A DNA stretch of 41,003 nucleotides from an uncultured Pelagibacteraceae bacterium. GTDB lineage: Bacteria; Pseudomonadota; Alphaproteobacteria; Pelagibacterales; Pelagibacteraceae. The DNA lies in NCBI GenBank assembly GCA_902603925.1, contig CACKWQ010000008.1, forward strand, positions 1-41,003, read 5' to 3'. The notes beneath the pieces are model-generated. The model had not been told where the DNA came from, ran no database searches, and saw only the letters and a program-made list of their open reading frames with translations. Shown piece after piece: positions 22,995 through 35,086 of the stretch (within the stretch, counting starts at the first letter, position 1; each line of letters begins with the position of its first letter). Both the position numbers and the translations under genes were made by a program.

Positions 22995-23109
22995 TTTGTA
23001 CGGCTCTTATGACTATGCGTGGTATTTGGCAATTGCATTATCTATTTTTGCAGGTTTAATACATTTACCAATTAGAGAGAAACCAGTTGAAAGAATTCAA
23101 AAAGCATAA
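22959..23109 (+). pseudogene. Frameshifted C-terminal part of the MFS transporter
   Basis: From the T7 run at 22959-22965 the sequence continues in the next frame as an intact, family-like end: GGLFYDLYGSYDYAWYLAIA, a final helix, then HLPIREKPVERIQKA and TAA at 23107-23109. The high quality of this tail argues that the break is recent, a sequence error, or a slippage site. The tail overlaps the pabB start by 23 bases. Confidence 0.75.
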
Positions 23110-24301
23110 ATTTAAATTTAGTCCTTATTTAGAAAGACTATATCAGTCTGATGAGCCTTTAATAGTTTATAAAGTAGATGATGGGTATAATATTTACACT
23201 CATTTTTCTAAAAAAATTATTTTAACAAATAAAAACATTAATAAATTTTTTAAATCATTTGATAAAAAAAAATATAAAAAAGAAACGGATACAATGATTG
23301 GTTTTTTTGGCTATGAAATATTATGCAATCTAATAGGTCTAAAAATCATTAATCAAAAAAAAAGTAATTTCTATAAAGGCATTTTTTATAAACCAGAGAC
23401 TGTTATAAAAATTAGAGATAATATAAAAATAGTATCAAATTTAAAAAATATAAAATCAAGATCAAATTTTCAAAAAACACAAATATCAAGCCCATTTAAA
23501 TTAAATATAAAATTTTCTAAATATCAAAAAATATTTAATTTTTTTTCAAAAAAAATAAGGGAGGGTGAAACGTATCAAATTAAAATTTGCACTAAATATA
23601 GAAATAAATCAAAAATAAATCCAATTAATTTTTTTTGGAGGTTAATGAAAGTTAATTCGTCTCCAGAAGCATTTATGATTAAAGATAAAGATTATTCAAT
23701 AGTAAGTTGCTCGCCTGAAACTTTAATCAATAAAAAAGGCTCTAATATAGTTACAAAGCCAATTGCTGGGACTTTAAAAAAGCTAAATGGATTAAATAAA
23801 CAGAAGGCTTTAAAATTTTTTAAACATAATATTAAAGAAACCAAAGAGCATAACATGATTGTTGACATGGAGAGGAGTGATTTGTCTAAAATTTGTAGGC
23901 CAGGAAGTGTAAAAATTTTGAAAAAGAAGTTTGTTGAAGAATACAAGCATTTATTCCATTATGTAACTTTAGTTAAAGGAAAATTGATAAATAAGATTAC
24001 TATAAAAGACATTATAAAAGCGATGATGCCAGGTGGTTCAGTAATCGGTTGTCCAAAAATTCGAACTTTGGAACTTTTAAACAATCAAGAAAACGAAGAT
24101 AGAAATATTTATACAGGGAGCTTTGGCTATATCAAGTTTAATAAGGATATGAGGTTTAATATTATCATAAGATCAATCTTAAATTATAAAAATTTATCAG
24201 AAATTTCGGCAGCATCTGGTGTAGTTTTGGATAGCACTGCCAAAAAAGAATTTAATGAAAATTATATAAAAGCTAAATCATTGTTGGAGTTATTTAAATG
24301 A
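23087..24301 (+). CDS. pabB: Aminodeoxychorismate synthase component I (chorismate-binding)
   Basis: A 404-residue enzyme of the PabB/TrpE family that aminates chorismate on the p-aminobenzoate route. IREGETYQIKIC, SSPEAFM, SCSPETL, the IVDMERSDLSKICRPG segment, PGGSVIGCPKIRT and YTGSFGYI are family motifs. At the catalytic loop it has PIAGT (225-229), where E. coli PabB has PIKGT; this form is shared with TrpE. The adjacent pabC-like gene favours pab over trp. The start appears to be TTG 23087, which overlaps the MFS tail by 23 bases. The stop overlaps pabA (ATGA). Confidence 0.85.
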   Translation: MKEFKKHKFKFSPYLERLYQSDEPLIVYKVDDGYNIYTHFSKKIILTNKNINKFFKSFDKKKYKKETDTMIGFFGYEILCNLIGLKIINQKKSNFYKGIFYKPETVIKIRDNIKIVSNLKNIKSRSNFQKTQISSPFKLNIKFSKYQKIFNFFSKKIREGETYQIKICTKYRNKSKINPINFFWRLMKVNSSPEAFMIKDKDYSIVSCSPETLINKKGSNIVTKPIAGTLKKLNGLNKQKALKFFKHNIKETKEHNMIVDMERSDLSKICRPGSVKILKKKFVEEYKHLFHYVTLVKGKLINKITIKDIIKAMMPGGSVIGCPKIRTLELLNNQENEDRNIYTGSFGYIKFNKDMRFNIIIRSILNYKNLSEISAASGVVLDSTAKKEFNENYIKAKSLLELFK

Positions 24302-24855
24302 TATATATTATTGATCATCAAGACTCATTCACATGGAATGTTGTTCACCAATTTAAAAAATTTGATAATGTTCATTGTTCTAATTATTTTGATATAAATA
24401 AGAAAATTTTAGATAGCTCTGATACAATTGTGTTATCACCTGGACCTGGTGCTCCAAGAGATTATCCGCAAACATCAAAAATTTATAAATATTTCAAGGG
24501 AAAGAAAAAAATTATTGGTATTTGTCTAGGATATCAACAAATACTCTTTAATGAGAGAGGAAAAATTATTCAACAAAAAGAAATATATCATGGATATCAA
24601 TCTAAAGTTAAAGTTACAAACAATAGTAAGGTATTTAAAAAAAATAAAGTTTTTAAGGTTGGAAGATATCACTCTTTAAAATTAAAAGAGCCCTTTAAGT
24701 CAGATACATTAAGTATTACAATGCGATGTAGCAAAACAAATATACCTATGGCTTTCGAAGATATAAGAAATAAAATTTATGGTTTTCAATTTCATCCTGA
24801 ATCTTTCCTAACTGAAAATGGTGACTTTATTATTAAAAAAATCTTATCTAATTAA
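24298..24855 (+). CDS. pabA: Aminodeoxychorismate synthase glutamine amidotransferase component
   Basis: A 185-residue class I glutamine amidotransferase that feeds ammonia to PabB. The catalytic triad is visible: Cys76 in GICLGYQQIL, and His166 and Glu168 in FQFHPESF. LSPGPGAPRDY lies at 47-56. The nucleophile-elbow has Tyr in place of the common His (GICLGYQ), a frequent variant. It overlaps pabB by 4 bases and pabC by 38 bases, so the three are translated together. Residue use is rich in Lys and Ile like its neighbours. Confidence 0.9.
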   Translation: MIYIIDHQDSFTWNVVHQFKKFDNVHCSNYFDINKKILDSSDTIVLSPGPGAPRDYPQTSKIYKYFKGKKKIIGICLGYQQILFNERGKIIQQKEIYHGYQSKVKVTNNSKVFKKNKVFKVGRYHSLKLKEPFKSDTLSITMRCSKTNIPMAFEDIRNKIYGFQFHPESFLTENGDFIIKKILSN

Positions 24856-25588
24856 TTCTTTAAAAGAAGTTCCGTTCAATGACTTGTGGGGGAACCATGG
24901 TGTGTTTACCACTATGAGAGTTATAGGCAAACCATTGAAAGTTATTTTTTTAAAAAATCATTTAAATAATTTGATTAAATCTACAAAAAGTTACAAAATC
25001 TTTAAAAAAGATTTAAATTTAAAATTATTAAAAATTTTAAAGATTAATTTGTATAAAAGTCAAAAATATAATCATTTATTAAGACTAGCTATAAATAAAA
25101 ATTTAATTTCTATATCGATAAGAAAACGTCCTACACCTATCAAAAATTTTAAATTAAAATTATTGAATTATAAAAGACAGAATCCAGAATATAAGAATTT
25201 AAAGTATAACTTTATTTTAAAAAATATGAAAAAGATTGATAATAAATCATCTGATTTAGTATTAATTCATAATAATAAAATCTATGAAACTGGAACTGCA
25301 AACTTGATTTTTGTTAAAAACAACAAAATATACTCTCCAAAGGAAAATTTTTATAAAGGAATAACTCTTAAATTTTTAAATAAAAAATTAAGAATAAATT
25401 TTATTGATATCCATTTAAAGAATCTTAAAGTATATGATGAAATAATATTAGTTGGTTCAGGAAAAGGAGTAATCTCTGTAAATAAGATTCAAGGTGTGAA
25501 TTGGAGAAGAAAGAGCCTAAAATACTACAATATTATGAATAATTATTATAAAAAAGCTGTTACTAAGTGTCCAAGATATTACAGTTGA
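24818..25588 (+). CDS. pabC: Aminotransferase class IV, probable 4-amino-4-deoxychorismate lyase
   Basis: A 256-residue fold-type IV PLP protein. GVFTTMRVIGKPL near residue 30, LKYNFILKNMKKID with the likely PLP lysine, YETGTANLIFVKNNKIYSP and KGITLKFL match the PabC/IlvE group. It would split aminodeoxychorismate to p-aminobenzoate and pyruvate, which completes the set with pabB and pabA. The sequence is divergent and extremely Lys/Asn rich. ATG 24818 gives a 38-base overlap with pabA; the true start could be slightly downstream at a non-ATG codon. The enzyme call rests mainly on operon context. Confidence 0.75.
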   Translation: MVTLLLKKSYLINSLKEVPFNDLWGNHGVFTTMRVIGKPLKVIFLKNHLNNLIKSTKSYKIFKKDLNLKLLKILKINLYKSQKYNHLLRLAINKNLISISIRKRPTPIKNFKLKLLNYKRQNPEYKNLKYNFILKNMKKIDNKSSDLVLIHNNKIYETGTANLIFVKNNKIYSPKENFYKGITLKFLNKKLRINFIDIHLKNLKVYDEIILVGSGKGVISVNKIQGVNWRRKSLKYYNIMNNYYKKAVTKCPRYYS

Positions 25589-25647: not shown

Positions 25648-26448
25648 GTGTTTTTAACAAATCCATTTTATATACTTTCAGAAAGCGTTGCACCAATATT
25701 TATGCAAATATTCGTAATATTGATGATTGCATTGATTGTTTTGGGTACAGTGATGGATATTGTTCACAAAAAAAATGTCAAATACTTTTTTGATAATGCA
25801 AAGAAAGCAAAAAAAAATGCTACTAAATCTTTGTCAGCAGGCGAAAGAATAAAAGTTTTATCAAAAACAGTTGTAAGTGATATAGCAACTACATCTGAAC
25901 TTGGTGCTGGTAAAAGGAGACTCGCACATGTAATGGGTATGTATGGCACAATTTTATTTTGGGTCGCTACAGTTGCGATGGTATTCATGTATACGAGCCC
26001 AAACTCAACAACACCAAATATATGGCCTATATTATGGCACGGTGGAGCAATACTAACTGTCTTAGGTGGATGTTGGTTTTGGTTTTTTCTAAGAGTTGAT
26101 GTTTATTCAGAAGCACAACCATGGTACAGAATAATTAAAGCAGATTTGTTCGTTTTAGCTTTGATTGCTACTTCACTTTTTGGATTGATATGGTCTTACC
26201 TACAAAACTTAGATCTAGGAAACAGATGGGATGATAAAGTTTTTTTAGTTTTTTACATTGTTGCGAACTTGATTCTATTTGGTGGAGTGTATTGGTCCAA
26301 GTTTGCTCATATGTTTTATAAACCTGGGGCTGCAATTCAAAAAAATCTTGCAGAAGCAGATGGATCTAGAGATAATTTACCTCCAGAAGCTGATGGACCT
26401 GAGCAATTTGGCCTAGGTATAAAAAGAGAAGAGCCAAAACACTATTAA
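25648..26448 (+). CDS. aprM: Adenylylsulfate reductase membrane anchor AprM
   Basis: A 266-residue membrane protein with about five helices, directly before aprB and aprA. In several sulfur-oxidising bacteria and in SAR11, AprM takes the place of the QmoABC complex and is thought to move electrons from AprBA to quinone. Histidines in or near helices (AHVMGMYG, LWHGGA, FAHMFYKPG) could bind heme, which I infer only. The C-terminal 40 residues are soluble and acidic. The start is GTG 25648 with a strong ribosome site (GGAGG at 25635-25639). It begins the sulfur operon; 59 bases separate it from pabC. Confidence 0.8.
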   Translation: MFLTNPFYILSESVAPIFMQIFVILMIALIVLGTVMDIVHKKNVKYFFDNAKKAKKNATKSLSAGERIKVLSKTVVSDIATTSELGAGKRRLAHVMGMYGTILFWVATVAMVFMYTSPNSTTPNIWPILWHGGAILTVLGGCWFWFFLRVDVYSEAQPWYRIIKADLFVLALIATSLFGLIWSYLQNLDLGNRWDDKVFLVFYIVANLILFGGVYWSKFAHMFYKPGAAIQKNLAEADGSRDNLPPEADGPEQFGLGIKREEPKHY

Positions 26449-26479
26449 TATGTTATTAGGAAAGGAATATTTATAAATT

Positions 26480-26950
26480 ATGTCAACTTTTGTATACATG
26501 ACTAGATGCGATGGATGTGGACACTGTGTGGATATATGCCCATCAGATATAATGCACATTGATGAGAACATTAGAAGAGCAAAAAATATAGAACCAAATT
26601 TTTGTTGGGAGTGTTACTCGTGCGTTAAAGCATGTCCAAATCACGCAATTGATGTGAGGGGTTATGCAGACTTTGCTCCGATGGGGCACAGCGTTAGAGT
26701 TAGAAGAGAAGAAGAAAAGGGAAAAATTTCATGGAGAATTAAGTTTAGAAATGGAACTGAAAAAAATTTTGTTTCGCCAATTACAACTAAACCTTGGGGT
26801 AAGCATATACCAAAACTTTCTGAGGGCGACACACCTAATCAAGGAGAGATGCAATCTCAAATTCTTTATAACGAACCAAATGGTTTGAATACAAATAAAG
26901 ATTTACCAACTATTAATAAAGATACCTTTAAAAAAGGAGTTTATTATTAA
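26480..26950 (+). CDS. aprB: Adenylylsulfate reductase beta subunit
   Basis: The 156-residue iron-sulfur subunit of APS reductase. Two 4Fe-4S clusters are shown by CDGCGHCVDICP (Cys10, 13, 16, 20) and CWECYSCVKACP (Cys42, 45, 48, 52). It links the FAD of AprA to the electron acceptor. The later SVRVRREEEKGKISWRIKFR and the Pro-rich tail that wraps the alpha subunit are family features. The stop overlaps the aprA start by one base (TAATG). In this context (no dsr genes seen, sulfite-releasing enzymes next door) the complex most likely runs in the direction sulfite to APS. Confidence 0.95.
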   Translation: MSTFVYMTRCDGCGHCVDICPSDIMHIDENIRRAKNIEPNFCWECYSCVKACPNHAIDVRGYADFAPMGHSVRVRREEEKGKISWRIKFRNGTEKNFVSPITTKPWGKHIPKLSEGDTPNQGEMQSQILYNEPNGLNTNKDLPTINKDTFKKGVYY

Positions 26951-28806
26951 TGGCAAAACATAAAACTATTTTTGAAGATTGCGATATATTAGTTGTTGGT
27001 GGTGGAATGGCCGGCACAGGTGCAACATTTGAAGCAAGACATTGGGGAAGAGATTTAAAGATAGTTTGTGTAGAAAAAGCTAATATCGATAGAAGTGGAG
27101 CGGTAGCTCAGGGCCTATATGCAATTAATTGTTATATGGGTATGCAGTGGAATGAAAATCAACCCGAAGATCACGTTAGATATGCAAGAAACGACCTAAT
27201 GGGCCTTGTCAGAGAAGATCTAGGATATGATATGGCAAGACACGTTGACTCAACAGTACATATGTTTGACGAATGGGGTCTTCCGATGATGAAAAATAAA
27301 GAGGGAAGATATCAGCGTGAGGGAAAATGGCAAATAATGATACACGGGGAGAGTTACAAGCCAATTGTTGCAGAAGCAGCAAAAAAATCAGCAGATAAAG
27401 TTTATAACAGAATTATGATTACTCATCTTCTAAAAGATGAAAGTAAAGAAAATAGAATTGGTGGTGCAGTAGGCTTTAACATGAGAACAGGGGACTACCA
27501 TGTTTTCAGGGCTAAAGCAGTTATTATATGCGCAGGTGGGGCATCACATATTTTTAAACCTAGAGCAGTCGGAGAAGGAATGGGTAGAACGTGGTATGCA
27601 CCTTGGAGTAATGGATCAGCTTATGCTCTGCCTATAGCTGTTGGAGCTAAAATGACACAAATGGAAAATAGAATTGTTCTTTGTAGATTTAAAGATGGGT
27701 ACGGACCAGTTGGTGCATATTTTTTGCATTTAAAAACTTATACTCAAAATGCCAATGGTGAGAATTATGAAAAAAAATGGTATGATCAAACTAAGGGTTT
27801 AGTGGGCGAATATATTGATCATCATCCAACTCCTACTTGTTTGAGGAACCACGCATTCATTCAAGAGATGGCTGCAGGAGGTGGACCAATTCATATGGTT
27901 ACAAAAGAAGCATTTCAAGATCCGCATCTTGAAACAGTTGGATGGGAAAACTTTTTAGGTATGACTGTGGGTCAAGCAGTTGTATGGGCCTCTCAAAATA
28001 TTGATCCAAAATATACAAACCCTGAGCTAACAACATCTGAGCCGTATGTAATGGGATCACACGCAACTTGCTCAGGCGCATGGGTAAGCGGACCTGAAGA
28101 CATTGCTCCAGATGAATATTTTTGGGGTTATAATAGGATGACAACGGTTGATGGTCTTTTTGGCGCTGGGGATACGGTTGGAGGTAGTGCTCATAAATTT
28201 TCTTCAGGATCATTTACAGAGGGAAGACTTGCAGCAAAAGCAGCTGTTAAATACATACAAGATAAGAAAGCTAATGGAATAGATGTTTCTGAAAATCAAT
28301 ATAACAATCTTAAAGAGGTTATTTACAAACCACTTGAAAACTATACTGTTGGAAGAAATGAGATAACTGGGGGGACGGTATCTCCAAGCTATATTTCACC
28401 AATTCAAGGACTGCAAAGGTTGCAAAAAATTATGGATGAATATTGTGGTGGATTATCAAACAATTATATGACTAATGAAAATCTTCTAAAAAAAGGACTG
28501 GAGCTATTAGATTGGTTACAAGAGGATCTAGAGCACGTTGCGGCAGAGGACTATCACCAATTAATGAGAGCTTGGGAGCTTAAACATAGAGCTATAACTT
28601 CTCAGTGTGTTACAGAGCATACTTTGTTTAGAAAAGAGACTAGATGGCCTGGATATTATTACAGAGGGGATCATATGAAATTAGATGATGAAAATTGGCA
28701 TTGTTTAACAGTCTCTAAACGTGACTCTGAGTCAGGCAAGTTTGAATTCGAGAAAAAGCCAGTATACCATATAATTGACGAAAAAGAGAAGAAGCAAGCG
28801 TCTTAA
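26950..28806 (+). CDS. aprA: Adenylylsulfate reductase alpha subunit
   Basis: The 618-residue FAD subunit, which interconverts sulfite plus AMP and adenosine 5'-phosphosulfate. The dinucleotide fold is LVVGGGMAGTGATFEAR near residue 15; EKANIDRSGAVAQGLYAINC follows, then TPTCLRNHAF and GSHATCSGAWVSGPED, and GLFGAGDTVGGSAHKFSSGS, all typical of AprA. Length is normal. It is coupled to aprB and followed after 14 bases by an uncharacterised gene. Sat (ATP sulfurylase), the usual next step to sulfate, is not in the window. The direction of the reaction is inferred from the surrounding xsc and suyAB. Confidence 0.96.
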   Translation: MAKHKTIFEDCDILVVGGGMAGTGATFEARHWGRDLKIVCVEKANIDRSGAVAQGLYAINCYMGMQWNENQPEDHVRYARNDLMGLVREDLGYDMARHVDSTVHMFDEWGLPMMKNKEGRYQREGKWQIMIHGESYKPIVAEAAKKSADKVYNRIMITHLLKDESKENRIGGAVGFNMRTGDYHVFRAKAVIICAGGASHIFKPRAVGEGMGRTWYAPWSNGSAYALPIAVGAKMTQMENRIVLCRFKDGYGPVGAYFLHLKTYTQNANGENYEKKWYDQTKGLVGEYIDHHPTPTCLRNHAFIQEMAAGGGPIHMVTKEAFQDPHLETVGWENFLGMTVGQAVVWASQNIDPKYTNPELTTSEPYVMGSHATCSGAWVSGPEDIAPDEYFWGYNRMTTVDGLFGAGDTVGGSAHKFSSGSFTEGRLAAKAAVKYIQDKKANGIDVSENQYNNLKEVIYKPLENYTVGRNEITGGTVSPSYISPIQGLQRLQKIMDEYCGGLSNNYMTNENLLKKGLELLDWLQEDLEHVAAEDYHQLMRAWELKHRAITSQCVTEHTLFRKETRWPGYYYRGDHMKLDDENWHCLTVSKRDSESGKFEFEKKPVYHIIDEKEKKQAS

Positions 28807-28820
28807 AAACACTCAGCATT

Positions 28821-29171
28821 ATGAGCTTACTTGATAAGTCTGATGATGAAATCATTAAAATAGCTGATCCTATGTGGTCAAATCTTGTAAAATGTTCCAA
28901 CATTAAAGATTATGGAGGTTTCACAAGAGATTTTTCTTCACAAATGCTTTACGGAGCTAATGAGGTCGAACTAGGAAAGCAGTGGGCAAATAATGAACTA
29001 ATTTCAACTCTATCAGAGGACTGTAAGGCCTTTGGCTGTTTAAGAAGAGGTGATTATGTGACTGTGCTTTACAAGCAGACTAGTACTAAAACACCAGGTG
29101 ACTTTCTAGGAAGAATTGTGCTGGGCGAGGAAGGTGGAGAGATAAAAGTTTTTGGAGCTACAATTTTTTAA
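28821..29171 (+). CDS. Uncharacterised 116-residue protein of the apr operon
   Basis: A soluble protein with no signal peptide. The N-terminal half is helical (IIKIADPMWSNLV, GGFTRDFSSQML, GKQWANNELISTL); the C-terminal half has several predicted strands (DYVTVLYKQTS, GDFLGRIVLG, GEIKVFGATIF). This helix-then-sheet plan recalls the NTF2/SnoaL-like fold, but I do not recognise the family. Two or three cysteines (residues 25, 68, 73) are present. It lies 14 bases after aprA and in front of a small membrane protein and a sulfite exporter, so a role in sulfite/APS handling is a reasonable guess. Confidence 0.7.
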   Translation: MSLLDKSDDEIIKIADPMWSNLVKCSNIKDYGGFTRDFSSQMLYGANEVELGKQWANNELISTLSEDCKAFGCLRRGDYVTVLYKQTSTKTPGDFLGRIVLGEEGGEIKVFGATIF

Positions 29172-29224
29172 ATTTTTATAAAATTTCACTTGCTAAGATT
29201 CGAAACTGGGTGTAGTGAGCTGTT

Positions 29225-29371
29225 ATGCTTAATAAATTTAATAAAAATATAACAAACTTTTTTAAGCAAATTCCAAATTTATCTACAATAATTAATACAA
29301 AACTCCTTATCTATTTCGGATTAGCTGCTTACTGGAGTGTCATGCTATTAGGTACATTTATTAATCTATAA
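29225..29371 (+). CDS. 48-residue single-TM protein between the apr genes and the exporter
   Basis: ATG 29225 opens a 48-codon frame to TAA at 29369-29371. The first half is basic (LNKFNKNITNFFKQIPN), the second is a membrane helix (LLIYFGLAAYWSVMLLGTFI). An in-frame stop at 29216 limits the start. It fits a gap that would otherwise be 244 bases without a gene. It has no clear ribosome site, so confidence is moderate. A partner of the exporter that follows after 43 bases, or of AprM, is possible. Confidence 0.5.
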   Translation: MLNKFNKNITNFFKQIPNLSTIINTKLLIYFGLAAYWSVMLLGTFINL

Positions 29372-29414
29372 TTTCGAAAATCATTATATTGACTTTAATT
29401 TATTAGAGGAATAA

Positions 29415-30500
29415 TTGTTGTCTATGGATTTCTTTCTTCCAATTGCAGAAGTATATGTAAGTCTTCCATTCATTTTTTTTTTAAGTTTCATTGTTGGAAT
29501 TTTATCTGGCTTATTTGGAGTTGGTGGAGGTTTTTTAATGACCCCTTTTTTAATTTTTTTAGGCATTCCCCCTGCATATGCAGTTCCAAATGAAGCAAAT
29601 AACATATTAGGAACATCGGTTTCTGGGTCAACAACACATTATTTAAAAGGCACTTTGGATTATAAAATGGGTTTTATGATAGTGATTGGGGGAGCAGTTG
29701 GTACCATTCTAGGAATAATTACTTTTACTTATTTTAAGGATATTGGTAAAATAAATATCGTTATCTCATTAGCATACATGTACATTCTTGCTATAATAGG
29801 AACTTTAATGTTAGTTCAAGGTGTCTCCGAAATTGATAGAGCTAGAAGAAAAGTAGTTGTCAGAAAAAAATTACATTCACATTATTGGATACATGGTCTT
29901 CCCTTAAGAATGCGATTTAAGAAATCAAAATTATATGAGAGTGTTTTTACACCCGTGTTGATGGGGTTAATTGTAGGCTTTATTGCAGCTATTATGGGTA
30001 TAGGAGGGGCGTTTATTTTAGTACCTGCGATGATTTATATAATTGGGATGCCGACTAATCTAATTCCTGGAACTTCTTTGTTTGTTACGATTTTTATAAG
30101 TGCAATTGTAACTGTACTACATGCCTTTAATTATGGGTCAATTGATTTAATTTTGGTCACAGTTTTAATTTTAGGTTCAATTTTAGGTGTACAGTTTGGT
30201 CAAAAAATAAGTGAAAGAGTTGATAGTTCTGAATTCAAAGCAATACTTGCAATACTATTATTATTGGTAGGTATAGCTATAGCATACGATACATTTTTCG
30301 CAGAAGATGCAATAAATAGTGTGGCTAGATCAGCGCCGGATAAACTTAATTGGTTATCACAGTGGGTAAAAGATTTTCAAAAAGAACAACCATTTAGTTA
30401 TGGAATGGCTTCAGTTGTCTTAGCACTTGGTCTAGGGGTGGGCGCAGCAATGATAAGACATTTTTTCTCTAGGATTAAAAAGAAAGCCGAACAATCTTAA
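29415..30500 (+). CDS. TauE/SafE-family sulfite (sulfur oxyanion) exporter
   Basis: A 361-residue membrane protein of the TSUP (DUF81) family with about nine helices in two homologous halves. [20 protein letters not shown] opens the first half and [20 protein letters not shown] opens the second. TauE-type members export sulfite made during taurine and sulfonate breakdown. Position fits: downstream of aprMBA, facing suyAB and near xsc. A ribosome site AGAGGA (29405-29410) suits a TTG start at 29415 or 29418 better than ATG 29424, which would lie 13 bases away. The stop overlaps the suyB stop region by 4 bases. Confidence 0.85.
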
Positions 30501-31663
30501 GCACTTCTATAAAGCTTAGTCATAACAAATTCCCTATGACCTAAAGCTTCAGCGCAAGTAAGTCTGCCATTAGCAACTCGGATAGTAGCTTTTATTAGTT
30601 CATCTCCCGCTTGATCTAAGTTCATTTGTCTTGATAAAATTTTGGATACATTAACATCTATATGCTCACTCATAGTTTTTGCTGTGAGTGGATTTGCTGT
30701 TAATTTAATAACTGGTTCAATTGGATTTCCTATTATATTTCCCTGTCCAGTTGGAAACAAATGAATATTAAATCCTCCAGCTGCTTGCAAGGTAACACAT
30801 TCAGCAGCAGCAGATGAGGTATCCATAAAATATAATCCCTTTCCCTTACTTGGTTCCTCAGCAGGTTCTAAAACATCAATAAATTTTAAATTACCAATTT
30901 TTTGAAAATTTCCGAATGCTTTTTCCTCAATAGTTGTTAAACCGCCGGCAATATTACCTGCGGTTGGTTGGCTTTCTGACAAATCGTCTGTTGCTTCTTT
31001 TAAAATAAAATCGTTATATGAATTCCAAGTTTTCATAAACTTTTTCTCTGCCTCCGGTGTTTTACCTCTTTTTGCGCATACTGTTTCTGCCCCGGTTAAC
31101 TCAGATGTTTCTCCAAAACATAAATGAACACCAAATGGTTCTAGTTTTTCCATTAAATTTCCAACTGTTGGATTTGACGCAAGTCCAGAAGTAGTATCAG
31201 ACTCTCCACACTTTACTGATATCCATAAATCACTCATTGGACATTCTTCTCTATGTTTTTCAGAAGCCCACATTGAAAACTCTTGAGCTTTCTTAGATAC
31301 TTTTGCAATAGTATCAATGTCACCAACACCCTCTATACTAAATCCCTCTACTGGCTTACCAGTTTTTGCAATTGCATCTACAATTCTTTTTGTCCACTTG
31401 GGCTCAATACCAATTACAATTACTGCTGCAACATTTGGATTTTTTCCAGTACCAATCATAGTTCTAAAATGTAGTTCTAGGTCAGCTCCAAATTGCAGCC
31501 TTCCATAAGAATGTGGTAATGCGATCGTTCCTTTTATATTATTTGCAACAGCTTCAGCGCATGCATTTGATATATCATCAACAGGCAATATAATTACATG
31601 GTTTCTAGTACCCGCCCTACCATTTTCTCTTTTATAACCTAAAAAACTTTTTGGAATTTCCAT
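30497..31663 (-). CDS. suyB: (2R)-sulfolactate sulfo-lyase beta subunit (UxaA family)
   Basis: A 388-residue protein of the altronate dehydratase/UxaA C-terminal family. It begins [20 protein letters not shown] and has [33 protein letters not shown] and [13 protein letters not shown], which are strongly conserved in this family. With the SAF-domain gene just upstream it matches SuyAB, which splits (R)-3-sulfolactate to pyruvate and sulfite. The separate small alpha gene and the xsc, apr and exporter genes around argue for sulfolactate and against a hexonate substrate. One base separates it from suyA. Confidence 0.8.
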
Positions 31664-31664
31664 A

Positions 31665-31952
31665 TTACCACTTCTTAGTTTTCACATTATGAACATGAAC
31701 ATGTTCACCTTTTTTAATAGCCTTTACAACTTTTCCAATGTCATGACCATATTTGATTATAGCATCTCCCTCACTTAAATCTGTCATAGCAATTTTATGA
31801 CCTAAAGGTATCTCGTTTTTTGATTGAATCTTTGTTGAATCATCATTTTCCATTATCCAACAATTACAGTCTTGATTTGGTATTATCTTCTCAATAACAA
31901 CAACCCCTACATTGTCTTTTTTGTTGTGAATTATAATATCTGTACCTGTCAT
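31665..31952 (-). CDS. suyA: (2R)-sulfolactate sulfo-lyase alpha subunit (SAF domain)
   Basis: A 95-residue SAF-domain protein. [20 protein letters not shown] followed by [20 protein letters not shown] and HNVK is the classical SAF signature shared with the N-terminus of altronate and galactarate dehydratases. Together with SuyB it forms the lyase for 3-sulfolactate. It is divergent from xsc with 88 bases between starts, so both sulfonate branches may share a control region. The alternative, a two-gene hexonate dehydratase, is less likely given the neighbours. Confidence 0.8.
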
Positions 31953-31969
31953 TGTGACGATTTCTTTAT

Positions 31970-31997
31970 TTGAAATTTTTGTAATCTTATATATTAA
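31970..31997 (+). promoter_or_regulatory. Candidate xsc promoter in the suyA-xsc divergent gap
   Basis: TTGAAA (31970-31975) and TATTAA (31992-31997) with a 16-base spacer lie 44 bases before the xsc ATG. The gap 31953-32040 must also hold the suyA promoter in the other direction. No obvious operator palindrome was seen. In so AT-rich a sequence such hexamers arise often by chance. Confidence 0.3.
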
Positions 31998-32040
31998 TCC
32001 CGTTGTATTAAAATTAAATTTTTAAAAAAGATATTAGATA

Positions 32041-33822
32041 ATGACTAAAATGACAACAGAAGAGGCTTTTATCAAAGTCCTTCAAATGCATGGAATTGAG
32101 CACGCGTTTGGTATTATTGGATCTGCGTTTATGCCGATTTCTGATTTATTTCCAAAAGCAGGAATTACCTTTTGGGATGTTGCTCACGAAACAAATGGTG
32201 GATTAATTGCAGATGGTTACACAAGATCGACTGGAAAAATTTCAATGGTCATTGCGCAAAATGGTCCAGGTATCACTGGACTTGTTACACCAATCAAAAC
32301 TGCATATTGGAATCATACACCTTTATTATTAGTAACTCCACAAGCAGCAAATAAAACTATGGGACAAGGTGGATTTCAAGAAGTAGAGCAAATGAATTTA
32401 TTTAAAGACATGGTTTGTTATCAAGAGGAAGTTAGAGATCCATCTAGAATGGCAGAAGTTTTAAATAGAGTTATTGAAAAGGCAATAAGAGGATCTGCAC
32501 CTGCTCAGATAAATGTTCCAAGAGATTATTGGACACAAGTTATTGATGTTGAACTTCCTCCAATTGTAAGATTTGAAAGGCAAGGCGGTGGAAAAGAAGC
32601 AATAGATAAAGCTGCAAAATTGCTTTCGGATGCAAAATTTCCAGTAATATTGTCAGGTGCGGGAGTTGTCATTGGTGATGCAATTAGTGAATGCAAAAGT
32701 TTAGCAGAAAAATTGGATGCACCAGTTTGCAATGGATACCAACACAATGATAGCTTTCCAGGAAGCCATCCTTTAGCAGTAGGACCTCTTGGATACAACG
32801 GATCAAAAGCTGCGATGCAATTAATTTCAAAAGCAGATGTAGTTTTAGCACTTGGCACAAGATTAAATCCCTTTTCTACATTACCAGGTTATGGAATTGA
32901 TTACTGGCCAAAAGACGCAAGTATTATTCAAGTAGATATGAATCCGGATAGAATTGGATTAACAAAAAAAGTTACAGTTGGAATAGCTGGAGATGCTAAG
33001 CAGGTTGCGCAACAAATCTATGAAAAACTATCAGCGAACGCCGGTGATAATGGTAGAGAGGAAAGAAAAAATTTAATTCATCAAACAAAATCAGCATGGC
33101 TTCAAACACTGACAAGTCTTGATCATGAGGATGATGATCCAGGAACGGTTTGGAACAAAGAAGCAAGAGAAAGAGATAAAGATAGAATGTCACCGAGACA
33201 AGCTTGGAGAGCAATACAAGCTGCAATGCCTGATGACGCAATTATATCAAGTGACATTGGAAATAATTGTGCAATAGGAAATGCTTATCCAATGTTTGAA
33301 AAGCCTAGAAAATATTTAGCACCAGGCTTATTTGGGCCATGTGGTTATGGTTTTCCATCTATCTTAGGAGCAAAGATTGGTTGTCCAGATACACCAGTAA
33401 TTGGTTTTGCGGGTGATGGAGCTTTTGGAATAAGCATGAATGAAATGAGTTCATGCGCTAGAGAAGAATGGCCAGCAATTACAATGGTAATATTTAGAAA
33501 TTATCAATGGGGAGCAGAAAAAAGAAATTCTATATTATGGTTTGATGACAATTTTATTGGTACAGAGCTTGACCCTGAACTAAGTTATGCAAAAGTTGCT
33601 AATGCTTGTGGTCTAAAAGGAGTTACGGTTAAAACAATGGAGGAGACAACTAAAGCGATAAAACAATCCTGCGAGGATCAAAAGAAGGGAGTTACAACTT
33701 TTATTGAGATTATTTTAAATCAAGAGTTGGGTGAACCCTTTAGAAGAGACGCTATGAAAAAACCTGTTCAAGTTGCTGGTATTAAAAAAGAAGACATGAA
33801 GCCGCAAAAATCTTTAGTTTAA
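32041..33822 (+). CDS. xsc: Sulfoacetaldehyde acetyltransferase
   Basis: A 593-residue thiamine diphosphate enzyme that converts sulfoacetaldehyde and phosphate into acetyl phosphate and sulfite, the central step in taurine and isethionate breakdown. The N-terminal ThDP glutamate is in WDVAHETNGGLIADGYTRST. NGPGITGLVTPIKTAYWNHT is highly typical of Xsc. The ThDP/Mg motif GFAGDGAFGISMNEMSSC lies near residue 460 with IFRNYQWGAEKRN after it. Length is that of Xsc. Because ThDP is its cofactor, its activity depends on thiamine precursor import (thiV). The stop overlaps the end of a convergent peroxiredoxin gene by 4 bases. Confidence 0.95.
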   Translation: MTKMTTEEAFIKVLQMHGIEHAFGIIGSAFMPISDLFPKAGITFWDVAHETNGGLIADGYTRSTGKISMVIAQNGPGITGLVTPIKTAYWNHTPLLLVTPQAANKTMGQGGFQEVEQMNLFKDMVCYQEEVRDPSRMAEVLNRVIEKAIRGSAPAQINVPRDYWTQVIDVELPPIVRFERQGGGKEAIDKAAKLLSDAKFPVILSGAGVVIGDAISECKSLAEKLDAPVCNGYQHNDSFPGSHPLAVGPLGYNGSKAAMQLISKADVVLALGTRLNPFSTLPGYGIDYWPKDASIIQVDMNPDRIGLTKKVTVGIAGDAKQVAQQIYEKLSANAGDNGREERKNLIHQTKSAWLQTLTSLDHEDDDPGTVWNKEARERDKDRMSPRQAWRAIQAAMPDDAIISSDIGNNCAIGNAYPMFEKPRKYLAPGLFGPCGYGFPSILGAKIGCPDTPVIGFAGDGAFGISMNEMSSCAREEWPAITMVIFRNYQWGAEKRNSILWFDDNFIGTELDPELSYAKVANACGLKGVTVKTMEETTKAIKQSCEDQKKGVTTFIEIILNQELGEPFRRDAMKKPVQVAGIKKEDMKPQKSLV

Positions 33823-34283
33823 ATATTTTTTAGTTCATCCAATACCGCTTTAGCATGATCTTTTACTCGTACATTTGACCATATTTTGTGGATTTTGCCT
33901 TTCGAATTAATCAAAAAAGTTGATCTAATAACCCCTTTAAATTTTTTTCCTAAAAAAGATTTCATCCCCCATACGCCATATTTTTTAATAACTAATAACT
34001 TTTCATCAGACAACAAATCAAATTTTAACTTATATTTTTTCTTAAATTTTAAATGACTTTCTATACTGTCTTTAGATATACCCAAAACTATTGTATTTTT
34101 TTTGTTAATCATTGAGTTAAGCTTACTAAAGTCTTTAGATTCTAGAGTGCAACCTGGCGTATCATCTTTTGGATAGAAATACAGAATTATATTTTTCTTT
34201 TTTACCTTGTTTAGTTGGAAAATGTTTCCACTTGTACTAATTAGTTTAAAATTAGGAGCTTTCTCATTTATTTTTAATTTCAT
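33819..34283 (-). CDS. bcp: Peroxiredoxin, Bcp/PrxQ type, without resolving cysteine
   Basis: A 154-residue thiol peroxidase. YFYPKDDTPGCTLESKDFS holds the peroxidatic Cys45. The position of the resolving cysteine in E. coli Bcp (Cys50) is Lys here, and the protein has no other cysteine that I see, so it should act as a 1-Cys enzyme with an external thiol. KYGVWGMKSFLGKKFKGVIR and STFLINSKGKI are the usual later motifs. It removes hydroperoxides in the cytoplasm. A small periplasmic protein gene lies 10 bases upstream on the same strand. Confidence 0.9.
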   Translation of the reverse strand: MKLKINEKAPNFKLISTSGNIFQLNKVKKKNIILYFYPKDDTPGCTLESKDFSKLNSMINKKNTIVLGISKDSIESHLKFKKKYKLKFDLLSDEKLLVIKKYGVWGMKSFLGKKFKGVIRSTFLINSKGKIHKIWSNVRVKDHAKAVLDELKNI

Positions 34284-34293
34284 TAAAGCACAA

Positions 34294-34527
34294 TTAGCTT
34301 GCTAAGAGATTTAATGCCTCATTTAACAATTTTTCAGAATTTGCATGATCACCATCCAAATGTGCTTTTTCACCCGCATCTCTTAACTTTTGAACTTTAG
34401 ACTTTAGATTATCATCGCTAATATCTTTTATTTTAGTGTCTAATTTGTTCCATAGCATTGGACATGATCCTGCGAAAGATGACGTGCTGAATAAAACCAA
34501 AAAGAATATTTGTAAGTATTTCTTCAT
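34294..34527 (-). CDS. Small secreted protein, 77 residues
   Basis: A short exported protein. The first 19 residues form a signal peptide (MKKYLQIFFLVLFSTSSFA) with likely cleavage before GSCPMLWNKLD. The mature ~58 residues are helical: DTKIKDISDDNLKSKVQKLR, then AGEKAHLDGDHANSEKLLNE. A C-P-x-x-x-x-x-L-D start followed by LRDAGEKAHLDGDH resembles small conserved periplasmic proteins in other proteobacteria whose role is unknown. It lies in front of bcp on the same strand. Confidence 0.7.
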   Translation of the reverse strand: MKKYLQIFFLVLFSTSSFAGSCPMLWNKLDTKIKDISDDNLKSKVQKLRDAGEKAHLDGDHANSEKLLNEALNLLAS

Positions 34528-34630
34528 ATCAGTATTGAATTTATAACTTTTTGAGATATTTAATAGGTCAACAATGTCACAAGTGTTAAAATATACTTAA
34601 AAAAAAATAATAAAATTTGTATTTTAAAAT

Positions 34631-35086
34631 ATGAGACGAAAATTTTTAAAAGTTTTGTTAAATTCATTTAGTATATTAATTATTTATCCATATACTTTAA
34701 TTTACGCAGCTACAAAAAAAATAATTAATAAAAATTTAACTGAAGAACAAAAAGAAATTTTATTTAATGAAGGTACTGAAAAACCATTCACTAGTGCACT
34801 ACTTCAAGAAAATAGAAAGGGTTTTTACCACTGTGCAAATTGTGGAAATAAATTGTTTAGCTCTGAGGCTAAATTTGATAGTGGGACTGGTTGGCCATCA
34901 TTTTCTGAAGCCTTACCCGGTGCTTTTAAAACAAAAATAGATTATGCATTTGGGATGAAAAGAACAGAATATCATTGTGCAAAATGTGGAGCTCATCACG
35001 GACATGTATTTAATGATGGACCATCTGAAACAGGTAAAAGATTTTGTAACAATGGTCTTTGCTTGATATTTAAACCATCAACATAA
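34631..35086 (+). CDS. msrB: Exported methionine-R-sulfoxide reductase B
   Basis: A 151-residue MsrB with an N-terminal export signal. MRRKFLK followed by a hydrophobic stretch to about residue 26 matches a twin-arginine (Tat) signal, so the enzyme probably works in the periplasm. The structural zinc is held by Cys68/Cys71 and Cys116/Cys119. The catalytic Cys139 is in KRFCNNGLCLIF, and Cys144 occupies a place where most homologues have Ser. DSGTGWPSF and GMKRTEYHC are canonical. It repairs oxidised methionine. A small secreted protein gene follows one base after its stop. Confidence 0.92.
   Translation: MRRKFLKVLLNSFSILIIYPYTLIYAATKKIINKNLTEEQKEILFNEGTEKPFTSALLQENRKGFYHCANCGNKLFSSEAKFDSGTGWPSFSEALPGAFKTKIDYAFGMKRTEYHCAKCGAHHGHVFNDGPSETGKRFCNNGLCLIFKPST

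Follow-up and report, generated by a model that had tools for sequence, protein, structure and literature searches.

A conserved block of sulfonate lyase and AprM-linked APS reductase genes in Pelagibacteraceae, with candidate routes of APS removal

The stretch of DNA analysed here (the window, 41,003 nt) is contig C8 of genome G000, a 63% complete, 0.84 Mb assembly from an uncultured bacterium of the SAR11 family Pelagibacteraceae. It carries a contiguous block in which the genes of an adenosine 5'-phosphosulfate (APS) reductase and its proposed membrane anchor (aprM, aprB and aprA) are followed by the orphan gene orf116, a permease gene (tauE) and genes for enzymes that act on sulfonates (suyB, suyA and xsc; Table 1). 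The spacing of the block is operon-like, with a gap of 31 nt between aprM and aprB, an overlap of 1 nt between aprB and aprA, a gap of 14 nt between aprA and orf116, an overlap of 4 nt between tauE and suyB, and 88 bp separating suyA from xsc. The gene list, order and coordinates of a preliminary description of this DNA were borne out by intact open reading frames (ORFs) in the ORF calling of the window and by curated family models, as was its account of suyA and xsc as divergent and of tauE as convergent to suyBA. An RNA scan of the window returned no tRNA and no Rfam match.

Table 1. Features of the apr-sulfonate block, in window coordinates
Feature	Coordinates	Strand	Description
aprM	25648..26448	+	Membrane protein, GTG start; proposed AprBA anchor and electron conduit; weak kinship to the membrane part of QmoC/TcuB
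aprB	26480..26950	+	Beta subunit of APS reductase with 2x[4Fe-4S], type of lineage I of the sulfur-oxidizing bacteria (SOB); TIGR02060
aprA	26950..28806	+	Flavin adenine dinucleotide (FAD) alpha subunit of APS reductase; TIGR02061; matches 1jnr/2fja over residues 9-610
orf116	28821..29171	+	116-aa orphan, aprA-linked, perhaps NTF2/cystatin-like
Possible 48-aa ORF, single transmembrane segment	29226..29372	+	Uncertain
tauE/safE-family permease (TSUP)	29415..30500	+	Putative sulfite exporter; PF01925
suyB	30497..31663	-	Probable large subunit of (R)-sulfolactate sulfo-lyase; GD_AH domains
suyA	31665..31952	-	Probable small subunit of sulfolactate sulfo-lyase; 95 aa, 1 bp from suyB
xsc	32041..33822	+	Sulfoacetaldehyde acetyltransferase; TIGR03457, PRK07525

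Curated family models underlie the naming of AprB, AprA, Xsc and the permease, all of which score above the cut-offs. AprB reached 189 bits against a cut-off of 136 for TIGR02060 and AprA 987 against 642 for TIGR02061, while Xsc scored 974.6 bits for TIGR03457 (cut-off 676.4) and 1041 bits for PRK07525; the permease matched PF01925 at E 5e-45 with 154 bits (cut-off 32.6), its sulfite cargo being putative. SuyB matched solely the broad UxaA/galactarate dehydratase family in Pfam and NCBIfam, and SuyA showed weak similarity to the N-terminal region of galactarate dehydratase. Because NCBIfam gives only galactarate dehydratase, SuyB was assigned by similarity and context: proteins encoded on 13 plasmids share 60-70% identity with it (39.5% for the next best match), and of two of these plasmid regions that were inspected, one carries hpsN and hpsO and the other a putative sulfate exporter. 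On this footing suyAB is a probable two-gene (R)-sulfolactate sulfo-lyase of the UxaA type.

The type of APS reductase was judged from AprB, from the neighbourhood and from a tree of AprA. Aligned to the AprB subunits of A. fulgidus and D. gigas (1jnr_B/3gyx_B), the AprB of the window is missing their 5-residue loop and carries a 2-residue insert within an acidic stretch. Published work gives the signature of SOB lineage I AprB as the lack of a loop after Cys13 together with an acidic-rich insert between strands 8 and 9, and is also the source for AprM as the membrane partner of AprBA (PMC2211403). In the window aprM directly precedes aprBA, with no qmo gene in the neighbourhood that was judged. 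For comparison we used 20 other alphaproteobacterial genomes with aprA, out of 385 drawn. In the AprA tree, which included no named reference sequence and from which three lineage II-like rows (L280, L281, L282) were left out, the window grouped with AprM-linked alphaproteobacterial outgroups, far from the single lineage II row, G383, whose locus holds lineage II aprBA, sat and, as judged by eye, a QmoA-like gene. By these sequence characters the AprBA of the window is of the AprM-linked SOB lineage I, and from its family we infer that it would run in the oxidative direction with AprM as its electron route.

Conservation of the block was assessed in 148 genomes drawn from the family, of which 73, the window genome included, had aprA above the cut-off; the remaining 72 aprA loci were fetched with up to 9 kb per flank, some contigs being shorter. 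Matches were found to aprM in 71 of the 72 loci, aprB in 71, orf116 in 70, tauE in 65, suyB in 65, suyA in 61 and xsc in 64. Contig ends inside the block account for some of the misses (L036, L080, L100), and the missing aprM and aprB of L101 are due to a contig that begins within aprA, while in L043, L067, L092 and L097 other genes occupy the expected place of suy and xsc. A search of 39 of the 75 relatives without a full aprA gave an xsc match in three, each of which is incomplete or begins at the end of a contig. Because xsc and suy keep with apr, and xsc is rare without it, the sulfite-making and sulfite-using parts travel together, and the association of the genes is not due to chance. 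The preliminary description had named two outcomes as counting against it, a lack of conserved adjacency of apr to xsc/suyAB in relatives and a place of AprBA among reductive enzymes, and neither was seen: apr was found beside xsc and suyAB in most of the 72 loci, and AprBA with the AprM-linked lineage I. Between tauE and suyB, 15 of the 72 loci also contain a putative sulfate exporter of the YeiH-like family PF03601, one of which was scanned and scored below the TIGR00698 cut-off. A similar pairing is seen in Paracoccus, where in the region of CP038201 suyAB, its SuyB about 70% identical to that of the window, likewise adjoins a putative sulfate exporter, although no apr gene is among the 12 annotated features of that stretch; a Paracoccus sulfolactate operon is the subject of Rein 2005, going by its title in PMC12421959.

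ATP sulfurylase (Sat), the enzyme that might be expected to remove APS, was rare in this family. PF01747 was found in 8 of the 148 genomes only, and in 4 of the 47 relatives that were apr-positive and at least 90% complete, that is, absent from 43, in a search that did not cover the CysDN heterodimer; the window genome, at its 63% completeness, had none. The same family was found in 19 of the 20 other aprA-bearing alphaproteobacterial genomes, in 15 cases no more than 5 kb from aprA, which makes SAR11 the exception. Published work likewise reports that ATP sulfurylase is lacking in most SAR11 (PMC10356861), and a table of seven strains lists cysN in HTCC7211 and HIMB59 and cysD in HIMB59 only (Table 3 of PMC5069961). 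A sat gene, linked or unlinked, was accordingly rejected as the APS remover of most relatives by the rarity of PF01747, within the limit that CysDN was outside the search. The preliminary description had noted that no sat was visible and that the means of removing APS must therefore lie in another part of the genome; the first part stands for G000, and the second is right only if some enzyme other than Sat does it.

A candidate for such an enzyme lies inside the block itself in most relatives. An Fhit-like histidine triad (HIT) protein of about 130 aa was detected by tblastn in 49 of the 72 loci, 48 of which were also recovered by ORF clustering, which overlooked one. Of these 48, 34 come from the genus of the window and lie upstream of aprM, on the same strand as apr and with pabC on their other side, and 14 come from two further genera, where HIT immediately follows suyB on the strand of suy. 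In a second set of 80 named loci, whose genomes are partly shared with the first, 63 show both pabC and aprM, and HIT stands between them in 53; a further HIT near a window-like block (L157) pairs with an HNH gene and not with apr, and was dropped from an initial 54. Searched across the family, this HIT occurred in 50 genomes, all 50 apr-positive, with the copy of G010 away from the block. Within genus g4 it was present in 10 of 22 apr-positive and 0 of 20 apr-negative genomes (Fisher p 6e-4, without correction for kinship). As HIT sits within the block, its co-occurrence with apr and its synteny count as one piece of evidence.

In the HIT tree the upstream and downstream proteins fell into separate supported groups, two other g1-type HITs joining the downstream group, and a constraint placing both positions in a single clade was mildly rejected (approximately unbiased test, p = 0.036, with the set reduced to 43 rows and the hypothesis chosen after the tree had been inspected). 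This suggests that the gene has probably been recruited twice into the same block. The protein matches PF01230 (E 3e-18) and carries the motif HCHIH, of the HxHxH type. For its structural model (predicted local distance difference test score, pLDDT, 75, and unreliable over residues 113-133) the closest match was Fhit, with Z 14.2 and 1.9 A over 104 residues; tied with it was diadenosine tetraphosphate (Ap4A) phosphorylase, at Z 13.6 and 3.1 A over 110 residues, while HINT1/hinT reached Z 12.1 at most and one C. albicans histidine-triad protein 12.9.

An ADP sulfurylase (adenylylsulfate:phosphate adenylyltransferase) of Thiobacillus denitrificans is reportedly the subject of a paper by Bruser in 2000, going by its title. 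Fhit releases AMP from APS (PMC7072326), and the title of Guranowski 2010, in the reference list of the same paper, reports both hydrolase and phosphorylase activity on APS for Hint4 and DcpS. The chemistry of these enzymes, either APS and phosphate giving ADP and sulfate or hydrolysis to AMP, is what we propose for the SAR11 HIT, although there the activity is suggested by genome context. Our literature search brought up no bacterial HIT protein with a link to AprBA. Because HIT enzymes can split APS, Sat of the PF01747 type is missing from nearly all relatives and HIT is in the block, we propose that HIT replaces Sat, and we give somewhat less than even odds to its being the APS-removing enzyme, phosphorylase or hydrolase, where it is present.

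We consider it very probable that the module is real and that AprBA works in the oxidative direction. The best explanation overall, in our moderately confident view, is a module for sulfonate dissimilation from which APS is drawn off by a route other than Sat, as PF01747 is missing in nearly all genomes. Xsc would convert sulfoacetaldehyde, derived from taurine or isethionate, to sulfite and acetyl phosphate, and SuyAB would convert (R)-sulfolactate, derived from 2,3-dihydroxypropane-1-sulfonate (DHPS) or sulfolactate, to sulfite and pyruvate; DHPS dehydrogenases of SAR11 are treated in PMC11131964. AprBA docked on AprM, perhaps with orf116 as a partner, would then join sulfite and AMP to form APS and deliver two electrons to the quinone pool, while TauE would release surplus sulfite. 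In most relatives the Fhit-like HIT of the module may split APS, with phosphate to ADP and sulfate or with water to AMP and sulfate, and in some relatives the sulfate could exit through the YeiH-like exporter. Phosphorolysis to ADP would keep one high-energy bond without a need for pyrophosphate. The fullest form of this proposal, a Sat-free path from organosulfonate to sulfate in which a HIT recruited at least twice from a mobile subfamily phosphorolyses APS and orf116 is a new component of one lineage I branch, seems to us rather doubtful as a whole.

Several observations weigh against a HIT-based, Sat-free module. This HIT is absent from 23 of the 73 apr-positive genomes, the window genome among them, and the five nearest relatives that were searched have no apr-linked HIT, two of them keeping a copy elsewhere. 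A role for HIT universal to apr was rejected on these grounds. These five do keep a distant housekeeping HIT, and the best match in G000 has E 1e-6. G383 offers a third link of HIT to apr, with a 50% identical HIT directly before xsc and beside lineage II aprBA, but since that genome has sat as well, its HIT is no substitute for Sat. The subfamily is, moreover, not specific to APS, because it also occurs in the company of HNH domains, next to genes of unrelated function and on contigs of viruses: it is fused to an HNH domain in L319 (7920-8909) and adjoins HNH genes in L157 (16666-17999) and L318 (7813-9201), with domains of PF13395/PF01844, and the HNH-linked forms possibly have a role in defence or in a mobile element. 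The label HNHadj in the HIT tree is unproven for G528 and G031, whose neighbouring gene encodes 335 aa and has no Pfam match. Within g1 the tie of HIT could be to pabC and not to aprM, co-occurrence with apr is not independent of linkage, and G116 and G118 may be without both HIT and apr through an assembly gap. The Sat search covered PF01747 alone, with cysN listed in HTCC7211, an aprA strain (PMC5069961), and excretion of sulfate from taurine has not been shown for cultured SAR11 (PMC10356861).

An unlikely but serious alternative is that the block serves sulfite detoxification only, AprBA and TauE keeping sulfite low while the carbon of the sulfonate is used, APS falls to general HIT proteins or other hydrolases and AprBA is followed by no energy step. 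This is the published view of SAR11 AprBA, which is described there as a sulfite remover and as reversible (PMC5069961), and the want of an apr-linked HIT in the window clade agrees with it. The presence of AprM in 71 of the 72 loci, in contrast, suggests that the electrons are put to use, and strong purifying selection has been reported on aprAB (PMC12636525), though that would fit detoxification equally.

The remaining alternatives concern the fate of APS or the direction of the enzyme. That APS is phosphorylated to 3'-phosphoadenosine 5'-phosphosulfate (PAPS) for sulfation, feeding sulfotransferases without ATP sulfurylase, appears improbable. The APS kinase family PF01583 is matched in 77 of the 148 genomes, twice in G000, and cysC occurs in the same strains as aprA (Table 3 of PMC5069961); many of these matches, however, are partial (spanning about 4-90 of 152 positions) and come from short P-loop proteins, the majority show no link to apr, and several near-complete apr-positive genomes have none (G004, G025, G032, G081, G112, G114). 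We rejected a PAPS sink on the partial and mostly unlinked matches, and the catabolic flux of sulfite would likely exceed the need.

We also give little credence to the proposal that a nucleotidyltransferase of 124-130 aa with an HxGH motif acts in the manner of an ATP sulfurylase, though of an unusual kind, and forms ATP and sulfate from APS and pyrophosphate. Its gene immediately precedes aprM in 22 of the 72 loci (e.g. L062), is found in 66 of the 73 apr-positive genomes (in G000 at C9:19576-19947 and C1:54321-54674), and elsewhere stands next to, or in some genomes is fused with, a gene for an APS-kinase-like P-loop protein; the protein carries the motifs GRWQPxHxGH and ISATKIR. It was nonetheless demoted to a rival candidate, since 18 apr-negative genomes carry it too; its match to CTP_transf_like is borderline, no relative was found in the PDB, and motifs of the HxGH type are common to NMN and cytidylyl transferases.

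A role for orf116, either in removing APS itself or as a catalytic third subunit of AprBA, is more doubtful still. The protein matched nothing in Pfam or NCBIfam, nothing in the PDB sequence search better than E 0.24 and nothing in phage records, and in viral contigs gave one partial match of 30 residues at a contig edge. Among the best 80 of 506 relatives, its closest named ones are from uncultured Pelagibacteraceae, at 92% identity. It adjoins aprA in 70 of the 72 relatives and, at 50% identity, in two genomes from a second family of Alphaproteobacteria, a distribution that would suit a catalytic role, but those two, G340 and G432, carry sat as well, and in the other 18 of the 20 outgroup genomes orf116 was not in the next-door position to aprA that was examined. 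With aprA present in those 18, orf116 would be no general subunit of AprBA but a mark of a single branch. In the tree, the AprA proteins of G432 and G148 together are sister to SAR11 AprA (fork 93), a placement that the long branch of G432 makes unsure for that genome. The orf116 model (pLDDT 72.6, residues 27-45 below 50) had a best Foldseek E of 0.01 and structural neighbours at Z 7.9 or less (VIA), only a hint of an NTF2/cystatin-like fold, and we know of no NTF2 protein that splits APS. The simplest reading is that orf116 partners AprBA in its structure or its assembly. Finally, that AprBA runs reductively to make sulfite from APS is scarcely credible even for a reversible enzyme (PMC5069961), because nearly all relatives have no sat to supply APS, AprB is of lineage I with AprM, and the neighbouring genes release sulfite.

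Parts of the sulfonate-dissimilation module have been described before. The coupling of SAR11 sulfonate lyases with AprBA, mostly without Sat, is already known (PMC10356861, PMC12636525), Tpa/Xsc followed by AprAB having come from metaproteomics cited in PMC10356861 and aprAB, suyAB and xsc being core or near-core in Pelagibacteraceae according to PMC12636525. This published account shares with ours the group of organisms, the enzymes, the direction and the lack of Sat, but in its accessible portions makes no mention of contiguity, orf116, HIT, a YeiH-like exporter or an APS sink. The linkage that the preliminary description singled out as noteworthy thus stands as conserved contiguity, although it is less surprising in the light of that work. 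In the open literature we searched, which leaves aside subscription papers and supplements, no contiguous block, apr-adjacent HIT or orf116 was reported, and the main text of PMC12636525 contains none of the strings 'synten', 'histidine triad' and 'sulfate exporter'; what is new here is HIT in the block, at two positions, and the YeiH-like exporter in some loci. 'Ca. Taurinisymbion ianthellae' (tauABC, tpa, xsc, aprAB, qmoAB, sat; PMC10356861) also oxidises sulfite from sulfonates via APS, but uses Qmo and Sat where SAR11 has AprM and mostly no Sat. The Allochromatium-type lineage I aprMBA (PMC2211403) shares the order aprM-aprB-aprA, the loopless AprB and the insert in the acidic stretch, whereas SAR11 differs in its sulfonate lyase neighbours, the lack of a linked sat and the added orf116 and HIT. 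SAR11 are among the most abundant cells of the ocean, most of them lack Sat (PMC10356861), and the fate of APS formed from sulfonate sulfite matters. The block supplies concrete, cheaply testable candidates in the HIT gene, orf116 and the YeiH-like exporter; if HIT does split APS, the energy yield would be different and the sulfur of taurine and DHPS would pass directly into the sulfate of seawater.

Some further observations concern individual loci and the surroundings of the block. Among the few SAR11 with sat, G146 has an ATP sulfurylase beside an APS kinase-like gene at C5 115059-125539, about 8 kb from apr, and G464 (L296) is the sole outgroup genome with aprMBA and no PF01747, neither HIT nor orf116 adjoining its aprA. 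The 48-aa ORF of Table 1 is weakly supported, because a similar ORF was present in just 18 of 46 testable gaps (20 more loci had gaps that were too short), and a stricter pattern was found in 8 of 66. A small cytochrome c gene lies within or adjoining the apr block in L046, L055, L074 and L080 (PF13442 in the L055 copy), in three of these four loci with a SET-domain gene alongside (PF00856 in L046). Eight loci (L055, L056, L067-L069, L074, L076, L080) have, downstream of orf116/tauE, a gene resembling those for homocysteine S-methyltransferase, the L055 copy matching PF02574. Directly past xsc, the window has peroxiredoxin and MsrB genes (33819-35086), as do the near relatives L156 and L157; within the fetched stretches they were in none of the 72 loci. 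On the other side, pabB-pabA-pabC occupies 23087-25588 of the window, and in relatives the same place holds either pab or a CADD-family gene: between an MFS gene and aprM, 35 of the 72 loci have pab, 31 have CADD, none has both and six have neither. The one CADD-family copy that was scanned scored 304 bits for TIGR04305 (cut-off 200), and this mutual exclusion looks like a swap, at one locus, of the route to p-aminobenzoate for folate.

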